Both the position numbers and the translations under genes were made by a program. Positions 4,305-20,175 of a DNA stretch of 64,000 bases are shown in pieces (the stretch's first letter is position 1; every line of letters starts with the position of its first letter). The notes under the pieces are model-generated. The model did no database searches, had not been told where the DNA came from, and saw nothing but the letters and a program-made list of their open reading frames with translations. The DNA comes from Rhododendron vialii (Eukaryota > Streptophyta > Magnoliopsida > Ericales > Ericaceae): positions 25,075,352-25,139,351 of the forward strand of contig NC_080562.1 of NCBI RefSeq assembly GCF_030253575.1, written 5' to 3'.

Positions 4305-5235
4305 CAACAGTGGCAACTGATCGCTTCAATATTGTTTGTTTGCATTCTGGAGGTAGACCCTGAGGGAACTGTTTGAAGTTGACGCAACAGTTGTAAACCA
4401 TGTAATTCTTTAGTACCCATTGAAGTCTCTTTCTCCCTGAAGCATCCAGATCTCAGTTCATCATTTTGTAAGTGTGAATCGTGTCATAAAACTGGTTCAT
4501 TTAGAGCCACAAGATGATGCCGAAGACCAAAGACAAGTTGGTATTCAAATTCCTGAAGGAGGCAGTCAAGGAGCTTTTGTCCAGTCTATCTTCATCCTAC
4601 CACCTTGTGCCGCCCAGTCATCTGGATTCCAGAGGCTGGAGTAAACTGTAGGCAATGGGACCCTAATGGTTCAAAAACGGTCTGAATACTCTTATCGGGA
4701 CAGTATCTACTATAAAACTGCAAGAAGATAGTCAAAGCATATTAGGAAAATATGATACTGATATGGATAAAAGAATTATGGGATGGTATCAAATGGTGGA
4801 TCTTTACCTGATGAGTTTGGCGTTCCAGATGATGGAATAGGTGTTGATGCACTTGTTGGATAAAATGTAGAAGTGTTGCTCCCTGTTTCCTTTTCCATTG
4901 GGTGGAAACATTGGTGCGGACAATGTGCAAGTGTCGGATGACAACTCGACCAGTTTTTCCAAGAACTCAAAATCATTCTCGTTGGCTCTTGAGAAGATAG
5001 CTGCACATGATGCCATACACTTGGCTATTAAGTCAACCATTTGTTGTTACTAAATTTTATTGTTAGTTTTAGGAGGGAACTAGGCATATGCGTAAGATAT
5101 AGTGCCAGTGCTAGTGTATGCCAGCTGAGTTGCTGGGAACAAGCTCAAGGGCATGCCGATCCTCCCAATGAGGTACTCGTTCTTTGATTAAAACCAGAAC
5201 CAGAGTACTTGTCCCAAGACAGAGTGTGAAGTTGG
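4305..5235 (-). pseudogene. XTH1: degenerate xyloglucan endotransglucosylase/hydrolase pseudogene
   Basis: Three XTH exons can be followed on the minus strand. The last exon keeps [13 protein letters not shown], the family's C-terminal signature, and upstream [16 protein letters not shown]. The middle exon (about 4808-5000) keeps FEF, GNREQHF and YSIIWN, but it is 193 instead of 194 bases long. Its catalytic core, normally DEIDFE, reads NENDFE. The first exon (about 5105-5235) keeps only the segment equivalent to LTLSLDKYSGSG through [10 protein letters not shown]. Several stops and frameshifts are present, and there is no signal peptide. The 5' part of exon 1 is replaced by LINE-like sequence. 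It is the most decayed member of the array and surely non-functional. Confidence 0.85.
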
Positions 5236-11958: not shown

Positions 11959-12765
11959 TCACTGCATAAACCTAGGTTGGTTGCATTCAGGGGGAAGTCC
12001 CTGAGGAAAGCGTTCGTAGTCTGTGCAGTAATTGTAAATCATACAGTTCTCCTGCACCCACATGAGTTTGTCCTGGTCTTCGGAGTCCAATGCTTGGGTT
12101 AGCCATGCCTCAGCACCTGTTACTGAATTGCTAGACTCAGAAGAACCACATGAAGATGATCCCGATGAGTATACGCAAGCATTTATGTCAAAATTTTTAT
12201 AGGAGGCAGTGAAAGGAGCTTCTGTCCAATTAGTCTTCACTCTTCCCCCTTCCGTTGCCCAGTCTTCCGCATCCCAGATGGTTGAGTAGACCGTCATCCC
12301 TTGGCAATTGGGGAATGGGACGCCGATGGCTTCGTTATTGTTGAATACCCTTACTGGAGTATTATCCACCATGAAACTGTACATTCGAAGAATAGAAGAA
12401 GTATTAGAAAGAAGCTAATTAAGAAGCTAAAGGCTATTGGAACAAAAAACCGATGCAGAATGACAAGACACGGTAGTGGAATTTTTAATGTTTCGAGGGG
12501 AATGCGACATCATTTTGCTTAAAAAAACCTCTGTTTGTACACTTATGAAAGCAGAGGATAGGGTACATTACATGATGCGTTGAGGATTCCAAATCACTGT
12601 GTACATGTTGAAGGATGCGGTGGGATCGAACCAAACACGAAATTGTTGTTCCCGGTTACCAACGCCTTGGGAGTAAATATTGGTATGGATAGTATATGGC
12701 TGTCCAGACGCATTGCCTAAGAATTCAAAGTCGATCTCATCATGGTTTGCTCCTTGGGAGGATAA
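11959..12765 (-). pseudogene. XTH3: XTH copy lacking exon 1
   Basis: Exon 3 (11959-12376) and exon 2 (12572-12765, 194 bp) are open and well preserved, with GT/AG borders. Exon 2 has [13 protein letters not shown], which includes both catalytic glutamates and the usual adjacent N-glycosylation site. Exon 3 ends [18 protein letters not shown] and has the C-terminal cysteines. Exon 1, which should encode the signal peptide and the first beta strands, is absent. Intron 1 runs straight into the 5' UTR GA repeat near 12965. Without it no secreted enzyme can be made. The clean remaining frames suggest the loss is recent. Confidence 0.88.
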
Positions 12766-12954
12766 CTGCATGCATAGAAAAAAGAAAGTCAGATGAAATT
12801 AATGAGACCATGTAAGAAAGAGAGAGAGGTGTGTAGTTCAGGCGTAGATCCGACATAGTGAAACGATATTTGATATGGGTCAACCATTAGTTAATTTTTG
12901 TGTGCGTTAGTTTTTTGGTGCATCTATCATTGGTGAAAATAAGGAAATTGAGTT

Positions 12955-13028
12955 GTGATCGATGGGGAGAGAGAGAGAGAGAGAGTATGTGTGTTTGATG
13001 GTTTGAAGGTTGTGGTTGTGGTTGTGGT

Positions 13029-13059
<31 letters not shown>

Positions 13060-13080
13060 AGAAGATCGAAAGCAATAGCC
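12955..13080. other. Deletion scar: intron 1 joined to 5' UTR and promoter of XTH3
   Basis: Up to about 12963 the sequence matches XTH5 intron 1 (TTGTGATCGGAGGGGAGAGG). From the GA run onward it matches the XTH5 5' UTR and promoter (TGTGTGTTTGATGGTTTGAA). The roughly 290 bp between them in XTH5, that is exon 1 and its donor site, are missing. A shared GGAGAG/GGGAGAG stretch at the join suggests a microhomology-mediated deletion. A (TA)n run follows at about 13030-13054. Confidence 0.8.
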
Positions 13081-13083
13081 ATT

Positions 13084-13138
13084 TTAAGAATTCATAATCG
13101 ATGTAATCATGTGTTACCCCTTGAGATGATAACTGCTT
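13084..13138 (-). pseudogene. XTH4 exon 2, 5' fragment next to the MULE
   Basis: The first 52 or so bases of an XTH exon 2 remain, readable as LSSQGVTHD followed by YIDYEFL. The DEIDFE core is altered to DYIDYE, which loses the first catalytic glutamate. On the low-coordinate side it joins XTH3 promoter sequence, so the rest of XTH4 (exon 2 end, intron 2, exon 3) is deleted. On the high-coordinate side it is cut by the MULE. Confidence 0.75.
13130..13138. repeat. MULE target-site duplication, left
   Basis: TAACTGCTT, identical to 18246-18254. Confidence 0.92.
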
Positions 13139-13200
13139 GGAGGGCTGCTTTTCCCCCCCCCCCTGACACCCCACCCCCCCCGGCCCCACACCCCATTTCC
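13139..13200. repeat. MULE left terminal inverted repeat
   Basis: It opens GGAGGGCTGCTTTTCCCC and contains TGACACCCCACCCCCC then GGCCCCACACC, complementary to 18185-18245. The outermost 15 bases match only partly (GGCTGCTTTTCC against AATTGCTATTCC). Confidence 0.8.
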
Positions 13201-13719
13201 CATATTACCCCTCCCCCCCCCCCCCCCCTCCCGTTCTCCTGCTCTCCTCTCTTTCCTTTTACTTTTTTTTTTCTTTCTTTTTTCTCCCCCTCCCCCTGCC
13301 GTTCTGCTGCTTCCCCCACGTTCCATTTACTTTTTTTTTTTCTTCTTTTTTCTTCTTTATTTTCTTTTGTTTTTTTTTCTGGTAGAATTTTTTTTTCGTT
13401 TTTTTCTCTTTATTTTCTTTTGATTCCTTCTACTTTGAACTTTTTTTTTATTATTTTAATAATCTTTTCTATTTTCTTTATTTGTTTCTTTTCCCCTTTA
13501 CCTCCCTTCTTTATTTTTTTTTTGGTTAACTCAAATTCTATTTTCAATTAAAATTGACTTTATGCTTAATAAATTTATATTATTTTAATTAGTTAATTAG
13601 TCTTAACAATGAATAATAAAAATAACTTGTAATGAACAATAATAAATTGAAATAAAATTTCATTTTATTATAATTGAGTACATATTGTCAAAACATGAAA
13701 ATACATAAAAACACAAATT

Positions 13720-16567
13720 TTAATCAATATCTCCTCCAAATGCTGCTCCCGGCATGCTTATACCCATTACTTCGTACCACAATAGCAAACGTGTTTCATA
13801 ACTGGCAGCCCATCCTTTAGCTTCATCCGATGAATGCTCCTCCCACCATATTGGGATGGGTGGTACAGGGTAATTAGGTTCTAAGAAAATTTGCACGAAG
13901 TGATCGTTGTTAACACGGGCAATAGCAATTTCCCGGCGGTATTCGACTGAAACTGGAGGGGACCTCAATGGCAAATGAGTAAAACAACCGTAAACATCCT
14001 CATCAAATGTATGCAGTACTAGGTTGTACCTTGTTGCGATGACAACTCCCAAAGTCATAGCCTCCATCCAGTGATCCTTTGGTGCCGTAGGCTCGAACCA
14101 ATTTAGTAAAATTAGTAGATGCTTTGCCCAATCATTTACTGGATAAATCTCGGTGTATAGATAATAATTTTGTTGAATCTCTTCAATAAGCTCCTCTCGT
14201 ACTCGACTCCAATCATTTTCACTATACCCGATTAGTGCAGCTATCGCCCTGAATCCACAATGACCATCACCAAGCACGTCAACAGTGTGGGAAATATAAC
14301 GCTGATAAGCCTGAGGTAATCGTTGAATGTAGGGATCAATGATGGATGGAACTATAAATTGAGTGTTGCGAACCCCCGAACCCCTCCCACGTCTCCCTCT
14401 CCCTCTCACTCGCGATGTTGCAGTCCTTGATCCTGAAGTGGATGCTTCTGAGAAAGAAGGTATGCGACGTGTACTTTGCTCATCTCTACCTGTAGGTCGA
14501 CCTCTATGTTCTGTGTTGTACGATGGAGGTCGAATTGTGCTACGAGATGGATCTGCCATATCGATAATCCTGTCTATGATATGCTCTCGCATAGGTGGAT
14601 CCATCCCATCTAATATCTCAACGACCTGAGATGTCCTGTCAGATCGTGCTCCCTCCTCATTAAACTCGGTTGCGTGCATAGACAACCTAGTCCAATGAGC
14701 GTGGATACTCCATAGCGGAATTGGAGTGGAAATGGAACGATAATATGCAAGATCGTGCATGCATGGCAATCCGTGTGTGATTTTGATCGTACAGTTGCAA
14801 TAGCCAACAATGTGGGGGGATACTTCTAAAGCGGTTTCTAGCTGATCATGTATGAACTCCATTGCCTCTAATGAAATACGACACCTTACCTGATCAAAAA
14901 TGTCGTCACGTAATTGTTTGTGGCGTGGAATGTTCAATGATTTCTCGAACGACTTCTTAATTTCCCCGAACTGATTTTTCAACATCTTATGTATTTTATC
15001 AAAAGATGTTTGTAGTGATGACATGGTATCCCCTAAATATAGCTTTAGCCTCGCATGTGCAGACTCTGCCCTGTAATAGAATAATGCACTGTGTTTAAAT
15101 AGGAAAGTATCAAAAAGTATTTCTTAGTATAGTAGAGAAATACACAAAATTTTAATAGGAAAGTGAAAAAGCGATTTTACCTTTGACTTGAATTGCTTCC
15201 GAGGTGCATACATGTATCTGTCCATGCTGAAACAAACCGCTCTTTGTACGACCTTAACCATGTTTGCCACAGGTAAGTTATGACATACGGAAACTGGCGA
15301 AAATCGTCGCACATGGCTTGCCACTTATGTTCGAAAGACGAAGGTGTAGATGAATTGATAAGCGAGTGCCATGACTTGACGAAGCGCTTCCATTCCGAAC
15401 CAAGCACACGGCTGCAGTTCTTCATGACGCACTGATTTATGTGCCAAATACACAAGATGTGACGTGCCGTAGGGAAACATGTTTCAATGGCGTTCATAAG
15501 CGCTAAATCCCGATCTGAAACAAACACCAATGGCATCGACGCCCCCTTTTGAAGCATCCAGTTTTTTAAGTTATCCAATGCCCATGTCAATGTCTCTTCT
15601 CTCTCATTACTAAGATAAGCGAACATAAGCGAGTAAGTTCGCCATGTGGATGTGATACCCACAACCTCCAATAGTGGTTTTCGATACTCATTGGTCTTGT
15701 ACGTGGCGTCAATGATCAGTACAGACGGAAAGTTGACAGATAGCTCTAGACTCATAGGATGAACCCAAATAATATCTGTGATTTCGTTAGTATCCGGATT
15801 TGTAAGAAATTGATGGAGGTAATGTTCCTTAAGTAATTGACGTATGACATACTGAATAGGAGTTAAACCGTCCAGTTTGGCTGCTTTGTTTGAAAAAATG
15901 GTGTTATAAATGCTCTTGATTCCCGTAGTGTTTGACGGGTCTTTTTGCTTCAAAATATTAAGAATCTCACGAGGCGCAGTACTGTTGGCCATGTCGACCA
16001 CAAATTGTTTCTCTATTGGTTTTAGCCTTGACGGGTACTCGTGGCCCTCAATATGTTTTGCTATTTCATGGTTATGGACACCACTAATAACCTCTAAACC
16101 CCACCTGATACCGTATGGATGTTGTGGTATACCTCGCAGTTGAAATGGGCAATCGCATTTTCTAGTCCCAGTATTTCTTTGCAAGGATTGCCCTTCAACC
16201 AAATACCGTGGCGGTTCGTACTTTCCTCCTCTTTCGCAACCAAGAATGCACTTCGGCAATTTGCCGCCTTTTAACTTAGCAGAATTTAAAATAACCACCA
16301 CAATACCATATTTTAGACCAACGCTCCGTGCCCAAGCTAACATATCTTCTCTACTTTCAAAAATCTATATAAAAAAAAATGTATAAATACAACATTAACC
16401 AGTCTTAACATAAATAACGAATATGCAAAACAATAACAGTGAAAACTAACCTGGTCGGTGGTAAATTCTTGTGTATAATCGCGACTATTGTGGGAGACAC
16501 TCTCCTCACTACGAATATCATTCTCAAATGACCAACTATCTGAAATTGAAAAGTTGTAGTCATCCAT
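13720..16567 (-). CDS. MULE transposase fused to a C-terminal OTU cysteine-protease domain
   Basis: Three exons are predicted: 16451-16567, 15181-16364 and 13720-15070, with GT/AG introns. The joined length is 2652 bp, exactly 884 codons (883 aa), with no internal stop. ATG 16567 (MDDYNFS) is chosen; ATG 16672 is an in-frame alternative. Residues about 80-160 hold a FAR1/WRKY-GCM1-like zinc motif (C..C, CDC, HNH). About 230-330 is the MULE transposase domain with LIIDATYKTN and FVSDRDLALM carrying two acidic catalytic residues, then CIWHINQ; the third acidic residue probably lies near FEHKW. CNCTIKITHGLPCMH is a SWIM zinc finger. The tail has an R/G-rich linker, then an OTU domain with GDGHCGFRAIA (Asp, Cys) and NNDHFVQIF (His). 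It should bind the element ends and mobilise it; the role of the protease is unknown. Confidence 0.88.
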
Positions 16568-16569
16568 TG

Positions 16570-17760
16570 TTCCTTCCCGAATTTTTCGCTGCGGCGTTCC
16601 TAAAAAATTTGACAAATACACAGTTTGTGAGGAAAGCCTAAGTAACCATGCCAAATTTTCACCGAAAATCATTATTCTAATTTTTGTAGATTATGTTTGA
16701 CATAGAAATAACCAGGAAAGTCCCAGGTCGGATGGTCGGACGAATCCAATTAGAATCACCATTCCTTCCTTAGTCGGTACGAAGCCAGACTTGTTGACAA
16801 ACTTTCGAGGGTGTTAGCCTCGGGTTACTCCACAATTGTAAAAACGATCATAAAGCATAGTGTCACATGGACGGACACCTTTGGAGTGGAAACCACTTAT
16901 GCTTTAGACCAGTAATTTTAGTAGAATAAGTTTGCTAGCTATCTTTAGTATTTTAACTTAATATGCATTTTTAAACACAAAAATAAAATATAATAGAAGG
17001 TTACGGTAGCTTACAGAAGATGAATGTGGCTATCGAACGAACTGACTTCTTACGGTAAGCTTACGTTAGCTTCGAAAGAGAAAACAAAATACTTTTTTTT
17101 CCTCTCGAAAATAAATATTGACTAAACTACTAAATTTTTTGGATCGAGAAGCTGATCGGGTGGTGGTTTAGTGGCGGCCTTGGGTTGAGTTTCTTGAAGA
17201 ACTCAAGAAGAAACTGAATAATACCAAGAACAAAGTAAGAACAAAGAGCAAACACAAAATTTCTAGAGAGACAAGTTGGAGAGATTCAAGGTGTGAATTG
17301 AATGGTTTCACAAAGAGTTCTATTTATAGGAAAATGAGGACCTCTCTCCTCACTCCATATGGCCGGCCCCCCCCCCCCCCCCATATTTGCTCTATGGTTG
17401 AAATCTAATTCTAGGTTTAAGTCTAATAAAAATATAGTTACAAAAATAAATGTTTCAACTTTCAATCTGTTTGAACTGGTGCAAAGATGTTATTTTTCTG
17501 ATCATTTCATCCTAAATGGTCGTAATAAATTTTTGCCTCCAAAGCCTTTCAATGAACACCCTAAGAGAGTCTTGAAACTAAATAATGAGTTTTAGGGTGT
17601 TTGTTGAAAAGTCTTAGAGCAAAAAATTCATTATAAACATTTCAAATAAAATTATCAAAAAAACATGATTTTTTACCCGGTGTATTTATAGAAATTAAAT
17701 AAATACGATAAAATTTATTAAATAAAAATAAAATTTAAAAGGTGAAGGTGTTTTAAGAAG
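16570..17760. promoter_or_regulatory. MULE 5' region upstream of the transposase
   Basis: No other gene is visible here. The stretch from about 16680 to 17300 contains a short repeated phrase (CTTACGGTAAGCTTACG-like) near 17000-17060 and a TATTTATAGG stretch near 17322. It should hold the transposase promoter, but no start site can be fixed by eye. Confidence 0.35.
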
Positions 17761-17859
17761 GGAGGGGGGGCCGGATGTTTTTTGGGTGGGGGGCCGGGGG
17801 ATAATCTGGGTTTTAAGAAAAGGCTGGAGTTTGATAAAAAAAAAAAAAAACAAAAAGAG

Positions 17860-18180
17860 AAGGCTGGGGGGCCGGGTAAAAACAAAAAGGGAAGGCTGGG
17901 GGGGCCGGGGCCGGTTAAAAAAAAAAGAAAACGGCCGGGTTTTAAAAAAAAGGAAAACAGAAAGGAAATGTTTGGGGGGGGGGGGGGGGGGGGGGGGGCG
18001 GGTAAAAAAAAAAAGAAAACGGCCGGGTTTAAAAAAAAAGGAAAACAGAAACGGAATGCTGGGGGGGCCCGGGTAAAAAAAAAACGAAAACAGCCGGGTT
18101 TAAAAAAAAAGGAAAACAGAAACGGAATGCTGGGGGGGGCCCGGGTAAAAAAAAGAGAAAACAAAAAGGAAAAGGGTAAG
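17860..18180. repeat. G-rich subterminal tandem repeats of the MULE
   Basis: Units of about 70 bp repeat with the order GAAAACGGCCGGGTTT, an A run, GGAAAACAG, GGAATGCTG, then a G run. Unit starts are near 17927, 18015 and 18086, with a degenerate one near 18155. One unit holds an uninterrupted run of about 23 or more G (about 17971-17998). The open frames across this region are low-complexity artefacts. Confidence 0.85.
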
Positions 18181-18184
18181 GGCA

Positions 18185-18245
18185 AGGAGGTAATTTTGGT
18201 GTGGGGCCGGGGGGGTGGGGTGTCAGGGGGGGAATAGCAATTTGC
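18185..18245. repeat. MULE right terminal inverted repeat
   Basis: Read on the minus strand it begins GCAAATTGCTATTCCCCCCC and continues TGACACCCCACCCCCC, matching the left end. Confidence 0.8.
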
Positions 18246-18254
18246 TAACTGCTT
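18246..18254. repeat. MULE target-site duplication, right
   Basis: TAACTGCTT, identical to 13130-13138. Other XTH copies carry the related unoccupied site ATAACTGCATRCA at the same exon border. Confidence 0.92.
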
Positions 18255-18484
18255 ACAAAAAGAAAGTCATAAAAAGTCAATTCTCACACAAGAACCCAAA
18301 AACAGACAAAGTTGTAAGTGTGGGTTCAAAGCTTAGATCCGACATAGCGAAACTATATTTGGAGCAGGTCAACCAGGGCTCGTCTTTTAAGGGCATTAAT
18401 TGTTTTTTTTTTTTCTCTTTTTTTAATAGTAAGTGCATTGTGTATTTGGTGTATGTCTCAATGGTACAAATCGGAAATTTTGAT

Positions 18485-18841
18485 CGCAAAAAAAATTTGT
18501 AGAGAATAATGCAAGGAAAAATGTATTTAGGTTCATTTCGGGTTCCATAAAAATCTAAAAAAATATCTATAAATTTTTGAATATTATTTTATGAGCCCCT
18601 GTAAAAAATCTGTTCAAACGGACATCGGTAAGTATTACTTTTGGATTCGTAGAGCGAAACTGCTCAGTTCGCCCCTACGAATCTAAAAGTAATACTTATC
18701 GATATCCATTGGAGTTGATTTTTTATAGGACCCATAAAATAATATTCGAAAATTTATAGATATTTTTCTAAATTTTTGTGCGACCTAGAATGGGCCCAAA
18801 CGCATTTTTCCTTGCGTGGTTCCCTGCAAATCTTCTTTGCG
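18485..18841. mobile_element. Foldback MITE in XTH4 intron 1
   Basis: The arms are complementary over about 170 bp each. CGCAAA is matched by TTTGCG at the ends, and GCAAGGAAAAATG (18511) by CATTTTTCCTTGC (to 18815). The inner arms share AAGTATTACTTTT..GATTCGTAG. The whole element forms one long hairpin. A convincing target duplication was not seen. A fragment of the same family lies at about 27825-27880. Confidence 0.85.
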
Positions 18842-18990
18842 AATAGCAGGGTTCTATATAAGGATATTATATTTTTGATATCATGGGAGAAGTTTGCGGC
18901 GTACATATATAGGAAGTGGCGGAAAATACCAGCAGAGTTGTTTTTATTTTTTATTATTTTTTATTATCAGTAGAGTTGTTAGGAACAAGC

Positions 18991-19280
18991 TTTTCTTTTT
19001 CTTTTTTTTTAAATTTTGATAAGGAAAAAATTTCATTAACTCGCGTAAATAATAATTACAAGTTAAAAGAAGATAGCCAAGAACATCAAAGGCGCGAAAG
19101 TATAACCCTGAAATGTTGGCACATACTGCCGTACCAATCATATGCTAGCCAAACACCAAAACAAAGGAGGGTAAGACACAAGCAGGCTAACCAAGAGAAA
19201 CAAACACATTACAAAGCATAAGACCAACCACACCGAATGTAAAACCATCCAACAAGAAACACGGCTATAAAGCCCCTGAA
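18991..19280 (-). mobile_element. 5'-truncated LINE 3' end in XTH4 exon 1
   Basis: On the minus strand the sequence ends in a poly(A)-like tail (T-rich at 18991-19011). It is flanked by two copies of the XTH exon 1 end (AGTGGCG..ACCAGCAGAGTTG at about 18912-18980 and 19288-19313). The duplication is the target site. The body resembles plant L1 3' ends, with reading ...PPLFWCLAS.... It removes the splice donor of exon 1. Confidence 0.7.
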
Positions 19281-19557
19281 AATAGAAAGTGGCGACAGTA
19301 CCAGCAGAGTTGTCATGAACAAGTATCATATACATGTCGAACCTTCCGAATTGCTAATAAATAGTCTTTCATGGATTGGAAACTAGAGCCAGAGTAGTTA
19401 ACAACGTGAGACAGTCTCCGCCATCCAGTATCATAGCGCGTTCATCACCGAAAGTGATTTCGACATCTCGGTAGAAGTTCTCAGCTGAGGCAGCCATTAG
19501 ATAATGGTCATGAACAATAGAACCAAAAGCGTCGCAGAAGTGGAAAGGGATGACATT

Positions 19558-19560
<3 letters not shown>

Positions 19561-19596
<36 letters not shown>

Positions 19597-20175
19597 TGTA
19601 TCATATTATTATAAAGTACATGGGAAGATCCTAAGCAGTAGGAGTTGACCATGCAATTAAATGAAAGGATGAAGCATCGGGACGGGGAAACAAGTTTGCG
19701 CGTTTTTTGCCGAGACTAGCCGTCCCTGGGCGCAACAATTCCATTTTGAAGTACTACTATATTTCTTAATAATTACTATTTCGACACAACTGCAGTGTGA
19801 AATAGATCTCATGAGTTAAAAGTCTTTAATAACGGCCAACTCAAAGTATCTTCACTCATGAGCTATTTAGACATTCAAACCTAAAACTTGACGGTAAAAT
19901 ATTTGTTTCACAGTGGTAAAGGTGATGTTAAACCATATTTGGTGTCAAATTCGGCAGCAACTTTAGCTTTGGTAAATCTGACTTTACTTGAGCAAAAATA
20001 TAGAATTGTATTGAAGAGTAAAATAGATTCAATCTAGTAATGATTTGAATTTGAGATTGCAACAACACTACGCTTGCTAGACTGACGACACATTAATTTT
20101 TCCTATTTTTTAACACTGTAAGTCAGAAATCACTTGATCCTCTAATGAAGGAATACTGGAAAAGTGGCCCAATGT
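19561..20175. promoter_or_regulatory. XTH4 upstream region, paralogous to XTH2 upstream
   Basis: Matches 9870-10330 and 11560-11680. Shared blocks include GTACATGGGAAGATCCTAA, GTTTTTTGCCGAGACTAGCC and AAAAGTGGCCCAATGT. This is the duplicated intergenic spacer between the XTH2/XTH3 and XTH4/XTH5 blocks. Confidence 0.7.

Follow-up and report, generated by a model that had tools for sequence, protein, structure and literature searches.

A Mutator-like element of Rhododendron vialii encoding a transposase with a C-terminal OTU-like domain

Background

Ubiquitin- and SUMO-type proteases recur in unrelated transposons: published accounts place Ulp1 in Mutator-like elements (MULEs) and in CACTA elements, either OTU or Ulp1 in Ginger1, and OTU in Helitrons. 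Here we describe a locus in a 64,000-nucleotide stretch of the Rhododendron vialii genome (contig NC_080562.1, positions 25,075,352 to 25,139,351 of the forward strand; the whole stretch is called the window and is numbered from its first letter), where a MULE-type transposase gene inside a 5,106-bp transposon appears to end in an OTU-like cysteine protease domain. According to excerpts of PMC2836005, Ginger1 DNA transposons of hydra, aphid and Aplysia carry a C-terminal OTU domain, and the Ginger authors proposed that transposition involves the ubiquitin pathway. OTU domains are also placed in Helitrons and Helentrons (excerpts of PMC2836005 and PMC6431247). Ulp1 proteases are reported in plant MULEs and CACTA elements, with KAONASHI/KIU, melon, rice and grapevine as examples (excerpts of PMC13317346 and PMC2528002), and FAR1/FHY3 and Jittery-like MULEs of plants combine an N-terminal FAR1 with a C-terminal SWIM domain in one open reading frame (excerpt of PMC6446971). 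On a soybean bacterial artificial chromosome (BAC) with a CACTA insertion, "ovarian tumor otubain" predictions lie between two F3'H pieces (excerpt of PMC2613891). Among the open-licence papers listed by our searches, we found none on a MULE-OTU fusion; the word OTU has no occurrence in the available main text of a MULE survey (PMC6446971) or in that of a study of 18,744 FAR1 genes (PMC8599713).

Results

We read the locus as a single gene whose product is a transposase carrying, at its C-terminus, an OTU-like cysteine protease of its own. Taken together with the role that we favour for the protease, namely protection of the transposase itself or of the transposition complex, this reading has about even chances. 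The gene is encoded on the minus strand by exons 16567-16451, 16364-15181 and 15070-13720, which, with the two GT-AG introns removed, give 2,652 bases (883 codons and a stop) free of internal stops.

16451..16567, minus strand: exon 1, with ATG at 16567 and an in-frame ATG further upstream; present in 9/9 copies, with junction peptide and start common to relatives
15181..16364, minus strand: exon 2, with the zinc region, the MULE domain, D258 (15710-15708) and D323 (15515-15513)
13720..15070, minus strand: exon 3, with E436, SWIM, the R/G linker, OTU and the stop

A search of the genome (532.6 Mb, 13 contigs) returned at least 95 matches to exon 3, nine of them at about 100% identity and further groups near 91-94%, 64% and 60%, the last group giving 55-57% in separate alignments. 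The nine near-identical copies, the window copy included, lie on five contigs (C6, C8, C10, C12 and C13). The initial annotation had claimed that three exons join without a stop to 884 codons, which holds as 883 codons plus stop, and these codons, the exon boundaries, the splice dinucleotides and the stop are intact in all nine copies. On average the copies differ by 2.0 positions per 2,652 coding bases (36 pairs); they comprise 7 different coding sequences, translated into 4 different proteins. The intact gene has multiplied very recently.

Three other GT-AG joins (879, 889 and 898 aa) are open within the scanned donor and acceptor windows, so openness alone is no proof of the 883-aa join. 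The junctions of the 883-aa form give the peptides ...FTT(D/N/H)Q-IF... and ...GSNSSQ-RAESAH... (hyphen at the junction) that are found in most relatives, the support coming from gene models of Rhodiola, Actinidia and others and not from transcripts. The best protein match, the R. vialii RefSeq model P0001 (837 aa), differs from the window protein by one residue (Met to Lys) and starts at Met47. In P0002, a further gene model of R. vialii, the exit from exon 1 is different (...TTDQ, then another sequence) and the start is the ATG upstream of 16567, up to which the frame is open. Since P0001 and P0002 differ in their start, the N-terminus of the 883-aa protein is provisional. With alternative joins open, a start elsewhere in P0001 and another splicing of exon 1 in P0002, the joined frame predicted from the genomic sequence might be a chance or prediction artefact of two adjacent genes. 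However, exon 3 is by itself a single uninterrupted frame that spans the catalytic Glu, SWIM and OTU, the same junctions occur in gene models of other plant orders and the nine copies are intact, and on these grounds we rejected the artefact as very improbable. Two members of the roughly 64%-identical family (L025/L026) were considered separately as an intronless copy, with an 884-codon open frame; they were set aside, as intron 2 is merely open there and they therefore give no splice evidence.

The protein encoded by the three exons comprises the following regions.

16068..16250, minus strand: AFT/FAR1-like (WRKY-GCM1 type) N-terminal zinc region, C...C...HNH, from the family profile against the AFT2 structure
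15432..15722, minus strand: MULE transposase domain PF10551, residues 254-350 (Pfam E 2.4e-27, 95.7 bits against a cut-off of 27.6)
14755..14799, minus strand: SWIM zinc motif C525-x-C527...C537-x-H539, seen by eye as CxC...CxH
14380..14412, minus strand: R/G-rich linker segment, residues 654-664, seen by eye, in a block with a predicted local distance difference test score (pLDDT) of 28-30 in the full P0001 model
13723..14349, minus strand: OTU-like domain, residues 675-883, with Cys705 at 14259-14257 and His824 at 13902-13900

The MULE DDE transposase domain is present, an RNase-H-like ZSWIM domain overlaps its PF10551 match in Pfam, and a C-x-x-H motif stands at C344/H347; D258, D323 and E436 are taken to be the catalytic triad. 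The AlphaFold2 full-length model of the near-identical P0001 (pLDDT 79.5; predicted template-modelling score, pTM, 0.56) matches first the ISCth4 transposase (E 8.2e-8), which we take to be IS256-type, then Hermes and OTU proteases. The 39-row family profile matches the yeast AFT2 structure 4lmg (E 1.2e-9), and at E <= 0.1 Pfam finds FAR1 (PF03101) in 9 and AFT in 21 of the 39 rows. The order of zinc region, transposase, SWIM, R/G linker and OTU given in the initial annotation can be followed by eye in the motifs; it is only partly recovered by Pfam, which leaves AFT under its cut-off in the window protein alone (E 0.016) and makes no SWIM call there (1/39 family rows at E <= 0.1). Neither the Ulp1 (C48) family nor the integrase family that would mark a Ginger1 element has a Pfam match at E <= 1 in the window protein, the MULE domain being found instead of the latter.

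The AlphaFold2 model of the OTU domain has a pLDDT of 91.8 and a pTM of 0.88. Foldseek aligned it at E <= 0.001 with 38 PDB chains, all of them OTU structures or complexes containing one, with 8-21% identity in the structural alignments to OTU proteases among the matches listed. Both Foldseek and VIA match the domain to OTU proteases, the best VIA match being VCPIP1, named as a deubiquitinating protein, and the family profiles agree. Thus the predicted fold is that of OTU, and the motifs GDGHCGFRAIA and NNDHF provide a catalytic Cys within DGxC (Cys705) and a downstream His (His824). In the 39-row family alignment, which includes the window protein and P0001 as two rows, Cys is kept in 35/38 rows, His in 36/37 and the Asp three before Cys in 38/38, compared with a mean column identity of 0.54. 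Among the genomic places that cover each residue, decayed copies included, Cys is kept in 89/90, His in 86/87, Asp(-3) in 86/90 and Asp(-7) in 87/90, counts that are inflated by near-copies. It was the family profiles and the predicted fold that revealed the OTU domain, not Pfam or the single-sequence search: the PDB search with the window protein gave only VCPIP1 at E 0.82, and Peptidase_C65 Otubain was found in 5/39 family rows (best E 0.0095).

Selection on the domain was assessed from the ratio of nonsynonymous to synonymous substitution rates (dN/dS, Nei-Gojobori) at 25 of the 95 genomic places, which were picked for a stop-free exon 3 and fall into four families, A-D. Within families the mean ratio of the OTU core is 0.22 in D, 0.45 in C and 0.75 in B, family A having too little change for a ratio; between families it is 0.78 (A-B), 0.57 (A-C), 0.79 (A-D), 0.54 (B-C), 0.80 (B-D) and 0.58 (C-D). 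As the mean is below 1 between all four families, the OTU part is constrained. For the adjoining transposase tail (85 codons) the ratios are 0.09 (D), 0.16 (C) and 0.23 (B) within families and 0.21 (A-B), 0.37 (A-C), 0.36 (A-D), 0.44 (B-C), 0.38 (B-D) and 0.29 (C-D) between them. The linker gives 0.41-0.51 for A/B versus C/D and 0.49 within D, and the SWIM segment (31 codons) lies above OTU with 0.98 (A-D) and 0.96 (B-D).

Several observations weigh against a working protease at this position. The Foldseek TM-scores are modest (query-normalised 0.37-0.55 among the matches listed), and the Pfam OTU model has no match in the window protein, where no OTU family appears at E <= 1, which is why we call the domain OTU-like. 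Tyr replaces Cys in 3/38 family rows. In most OTUs the third catalytic residue is an Asp or Asn two positions after His, and in A20-type OTUs, whose acid is supplied from elsewhere, it is an N-terminal Asp. Here Asp or Asn stands two after His824 in none of 36 family rows (Val 28, Ile 6, Pro 1, Cys 1) and at none of 87 genomic places (Val 77, Met 6, Glu 2, Ala 1, Ile 1); the window protein has Val. The OTU ratio exceeds that of the transposase tail between families and that of the linker for A/B versus C/D, hence the constraint on OTU is weaker than on these parts. Individual pairs go as high as 0.97 (L009-L018) and, in family B, 3.81 (L018-L019, with almost no synonymous change). Lastly, 14 of the 63 homologues surveyed below are without OTU. 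The A-B ratio is likewise above 1 in the linker (2.19) and the C-tail (3.96), where synonymous change is almost nil, and ratios above 1 may reflect gene conversion or chance.

The absence of Asp/Asn at His+2, the relatively high OTU dN/dS and the missing Cys in 3/38 rows would all suit an OTU fold that is catalytically weak or dead and persists as a module that binds ubiquitin or serves structurally, in dimerisation or in docking of a host factor. Against this reading stand the retention of Cys and His at nearly all genomic places, decayed ones included, the invariant Asp(-3) of the family rows, the precedent of A20-type OTUs with their acid from another position and the VCPIP1 match with its deubiquitinating name, and we consider such a module unlikely. 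Asp698, which is D in 34 and N in 4 of 38 family rows, is a candidate for the third catalytic residue. The OTU domain proposed in the initial annotation is borne out in its predicted fold and in the placement of Cys and His, and not in a full catalytic triad, given Val at His+2. We read OTU as a functional yet fast-changing domain, which the substitution pattern would allow; relaxed constraint on it is the sober alternative.

The coding interval 13720..16567, to which the initial annotation had confined the feature, is the coding part of a larger mobile unit (13140-18245), whose parts are as follows.

13140..18245, minus strand (that of the gene): whole transposon, 5,106 bp, from end-to-end alignment of copies and flanking duplications
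13130..13138, no strand: left target-site duplication TAACTGCTT, an exact 9-mer repeated at 18246-18254
18246..18254, no strand: right target-site duplication TAACTGCTT, an exact 9-mer, with the empty site in a paralogous exon
13140..13192, plus strand: terminal inverted repeat (TIR), element 3' end, core 13157-13192, outer part imperfect
18198..18245, minus strand: TIR, element 5' end, core 18198-18232
17846..18173, minus strand: 5' subterminal tandem repeats with units of 32, 71 and 88 bp among others and long G runs (Tandem Repeats Finder)
13218..13353, minus strand: 3' subterminal 68-bp unit in two copies (Tandem Repeats Finder)

Alignments of eight copies (L009, L011-L017) start at base 1, or in one case at base 14, and end at 5106/5107, with 99.1-100% nucleotide identity, and one extra base, 13139, lies between the left duplication and the common element end. 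The TIRs are short, their cores matching at 35/36 positions with one gap, and the 16-base core CCCTGACACCCCACCC, allowing at most one mismatch, occurs in the window only at 13161-13176 (+) and 18213-18228 (-), with a chance expectation of 0.00. Exact flanking duplications of at least 9 bp were found for six of eight assessable copies, L013 being ambiguous by one base versus the element end; L015 has a duplication only with one mismatch and for L016 none was reported, and the ninth copy, L010, stands outside this count as its right end reads N. The insertion site is a truncated duplicate of an exon, and the paralogous exon at about 12568-12763 of the window aligns through the insertion point with a single duplicated site (joined flanks, score 92 versus 29 for the best of 200 shuffles). 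Both a target duplication of about 9 bp and terminal inverted repeats, as in MULEs, are thus present, and the sequence points to a recently mobile, TIR-type Mutator-like element of Rhododendron that is apparently autonomous. The order of zinc region, MULE domain and SWIM is also that of FAR1/FHY3 (excerpt of PMC2528002), and several relatives bear the names FAR1-RELATED SEQUENCE or FAR-RED IMPAIRED RESPONSE 1-like, as would be expected of an FHY3/FAR1-type gene domesticated by the host. That reading is contradicted by the TIRs, the target duplications, the empty paralogous site and the nine near-identical copies on five contigs; we rejected it, and of all explanations considered it has the smallest probability.

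The tandem repeats of both subterminal regions include long G/C runs. Extended simple-sequence tracts (runs of TA, C and G) lie in or beside the element ends (13029-13055, 13153-13240, 17974-18002), and the C/G runs at the ends differ in length among copies and may be sequencing-sensitive. The interrupted exon and its paralogue are presumably XTH-like. On the minus strand, 12568-13138 and 18255-19605 hold a seemingly intact exon, the truncated transposon-hit duplicate and an upstream exon, in which similarity carries on in another frame at 19290-19605.

The same fusion was found in other plants, as the initial annotation had proposed to look for: 49 of 63 homologues (62 from one protein search and one from another) carry OTU by the family profile, and a single-sequence model gives the same count. 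The view that an OTU-type fusion is less described than a Ulp1-type one agrees with the lack of a MULE-OTU paper in our search; it does not extend to the fusion itself, which is not rare, or to OTU on transposons, which is known in Ginger1 and Helitrons. Named sources of OTU-bearing homologues are Rhododendron, Actinidia, Camellia, Rhodiola, Citrus, Rosa, Prunus, Malus, Rubus, Phaseolus, Lactuca, Perilla and Lithospermum, and an OTU-only search adds Impatiens, Apostasia (an orchid), Dionaea, Humulus and Vaccinium. None of the 64 OTU-only matches carries the name of a known deubiquitinase, in a search limited by length and shared words; many are unnamed or "uncharacterized", several are called "OTU domain-containing protein" and a single one "alpha-glucosidase". 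The fusion is present in existing database records under other names, e.g. FAR1-RELATED SEQUENCE and FAR-RED IMPAIRED RESPONSE 1-like. On a tree of 42 transposase cores (21 of the 63 homologues dropped for short cores) the OTU label requires 5 changes versus 9.9 in shuffles, with 0/500 shuffles as low; this tree and a second one, built from 36 of 38 selected rows after a coverage filter had removed two, have long branches and a midpoint root. With 49/63 homologues and 5 versus 9.9 changes the fusion looks old, which would fit a single origin and a few losses. In P0008 of Impatiens the apparent loss could stem from a gene model that was split, given that the separate OTU fragment P0071 comes from a contig of equal length.

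Outside the plants, Gigaspora (an arbuscular mycorrhizal fungus) has the same OTU lineage at 32% identity (P0113, P0116). The OTU of Apostasia shenzhenica (P0070, P0104) groups with Impatiens P0071 and Rhodiola P0003/P0004 in the 36-row tree (support 95/99) and is 85% identical to that of Impatiens (196 aa) and 54% to that of Actinidia (327 aa, linker included); the element may have passed horizontally between distant plants, and assembly contamination or hidden paralogy may also be the source of the likeness. In P0070, Gly replaces the Asp of DGxC. In P0023 (Rosa rugosa), P0024 (Prunus avium) and P0025 (Malus domestica), AWS and SET stand ahead of the zinc-MULE-OTU cassette (SET at E 2.1e-25 in P0023 and 3.3e-25 in P0024, by Pfam annotation in P0025), and P0023 and P0024 share 81% identity in an alignment of 1,132 residues. 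The arrangement has the look of a SET-transposase gene domesticated by a Rosaceae host, comparable in kind to primate SETMAR; a search of the open-licence literature listed nothing on it. By Pfam annotation P0058 (Lithospermum) has FAR1 and OTU and no listed MULE domain, P0027 carries NUDIX and P0029 (Rubus) AP2, variants that may be gene-model fusions.

Discussion

The presence of a domain of the ubiquitin-removing type suggests that the transposon may interfere with the protein-tagging system of its host. We propose that the zinc region and SWIM would bind the element ends and the DDE core would cut and join DNA, while the OTU domain, on its flexible R/G-rich linker, would act in cis and free the transposase, or its neighbours at the ends, of ubiquitin or a ubiquitin-like tag. 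Removal of the tag could spare the transposase proteasomal turnover or help the cut complex to be released and repaired, and transposition would be raised in consequence. Both the cleavage of ubiquitin, or of a protein like it, and its action in cis are our inference.

The targets could also be host chromatin or silencing factors near the element, for instance ubiquitylated histones, in an anti-silencing role like that of VANC/KIU of the VANDAL elements of Arabidopsis. Arabidopsis OTU1 is reported as a histone deubiquitinase (excerpt of PMC7068640), KIU-carrying VANDALs are reported to evade silencing (excerpt of PMC13317346), and the family has multiplied recently in a plant genome. However, no sequence feature of the fused protein points to histones, VANC is encoded by a separate gene whereas here both activities would reside in one protein, and the fast change of OTU is ill-suited to a constant histone target, although it could suit a changing host factor. 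We rank this role below the non-catalytic module and hold it to be improbable, and we favour self-protection over both.

On a wider scale, plant MULEs might multiply with a transposase-tethered deubiquitinase that shields the transposase or its complex from the host ubiquitin system, with OTU in an arms race with ubiquitin ligases and the cassette later taken into the Rosaceae SET gene, a scenario that we put forward tentatively and hold to be unlikely. Change of OTU around fixed catalytic residues, more rapid than that of the transposase tail beside it, would then reflect the arms race with host ubiquitin ligases. The family is very young, with nine copies coding for the complete protein, and has transposase and OTU on one chain, so that the role of the putative protease is directly addressable by a change of a single cysteine. 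The family profile captures an OTU lineage missed here by the Pfam models and could expose the fusion in genes labelled FAR1-RELATED SEQUENCE or PKS-NRPS-like.

Compared with known systems, the locus resembles Ginger1 in that a single transposase protein has a C-terminal OTU protease-like domain, but the Ginger1 transposase is Gypsy-integrase-like and found in animals, whereas here a MULE transposase with a putative AFT/FAR1-like zinc region and SWIM motif is found in plants. With the Ulp1-carrying plant MULEs it shares the combination of a plant MULE and a ubiquitin/SUMO-type cysteine protease; in those elements the protease is Ulp1 and, in the KI-MULEs as described in an excerpt of PMC2528002, lies in reverse orientation to mudrA, while here it is OTU within the transposase. 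Jittery-like MULEs are alike in the single open reading frame in plants, and their FAR1 N-terminus and SWIM would correspond to the putative zinc region and SWIM motif here. The OTU domains of VCPIP1, OTUD3, OTUD5, A20 and nairoviruses have the same fold, DGxC motif and His, and differ from the domain described here by its Val at His+2 and its fusion to a transposase. Helitrons and Helentrons also bring an OTU-like protease onto a mobile element, but theirs goes with a rolling-circle Rep/helicase and no DDE transposase. The soybean BAC likewise has OTU-like coding predictions next to a plant transposon, although that one belongs to the CACTA superfamily and the table of PMC2613891 assigns the predictions to neither the transposon nor a fused transposase.

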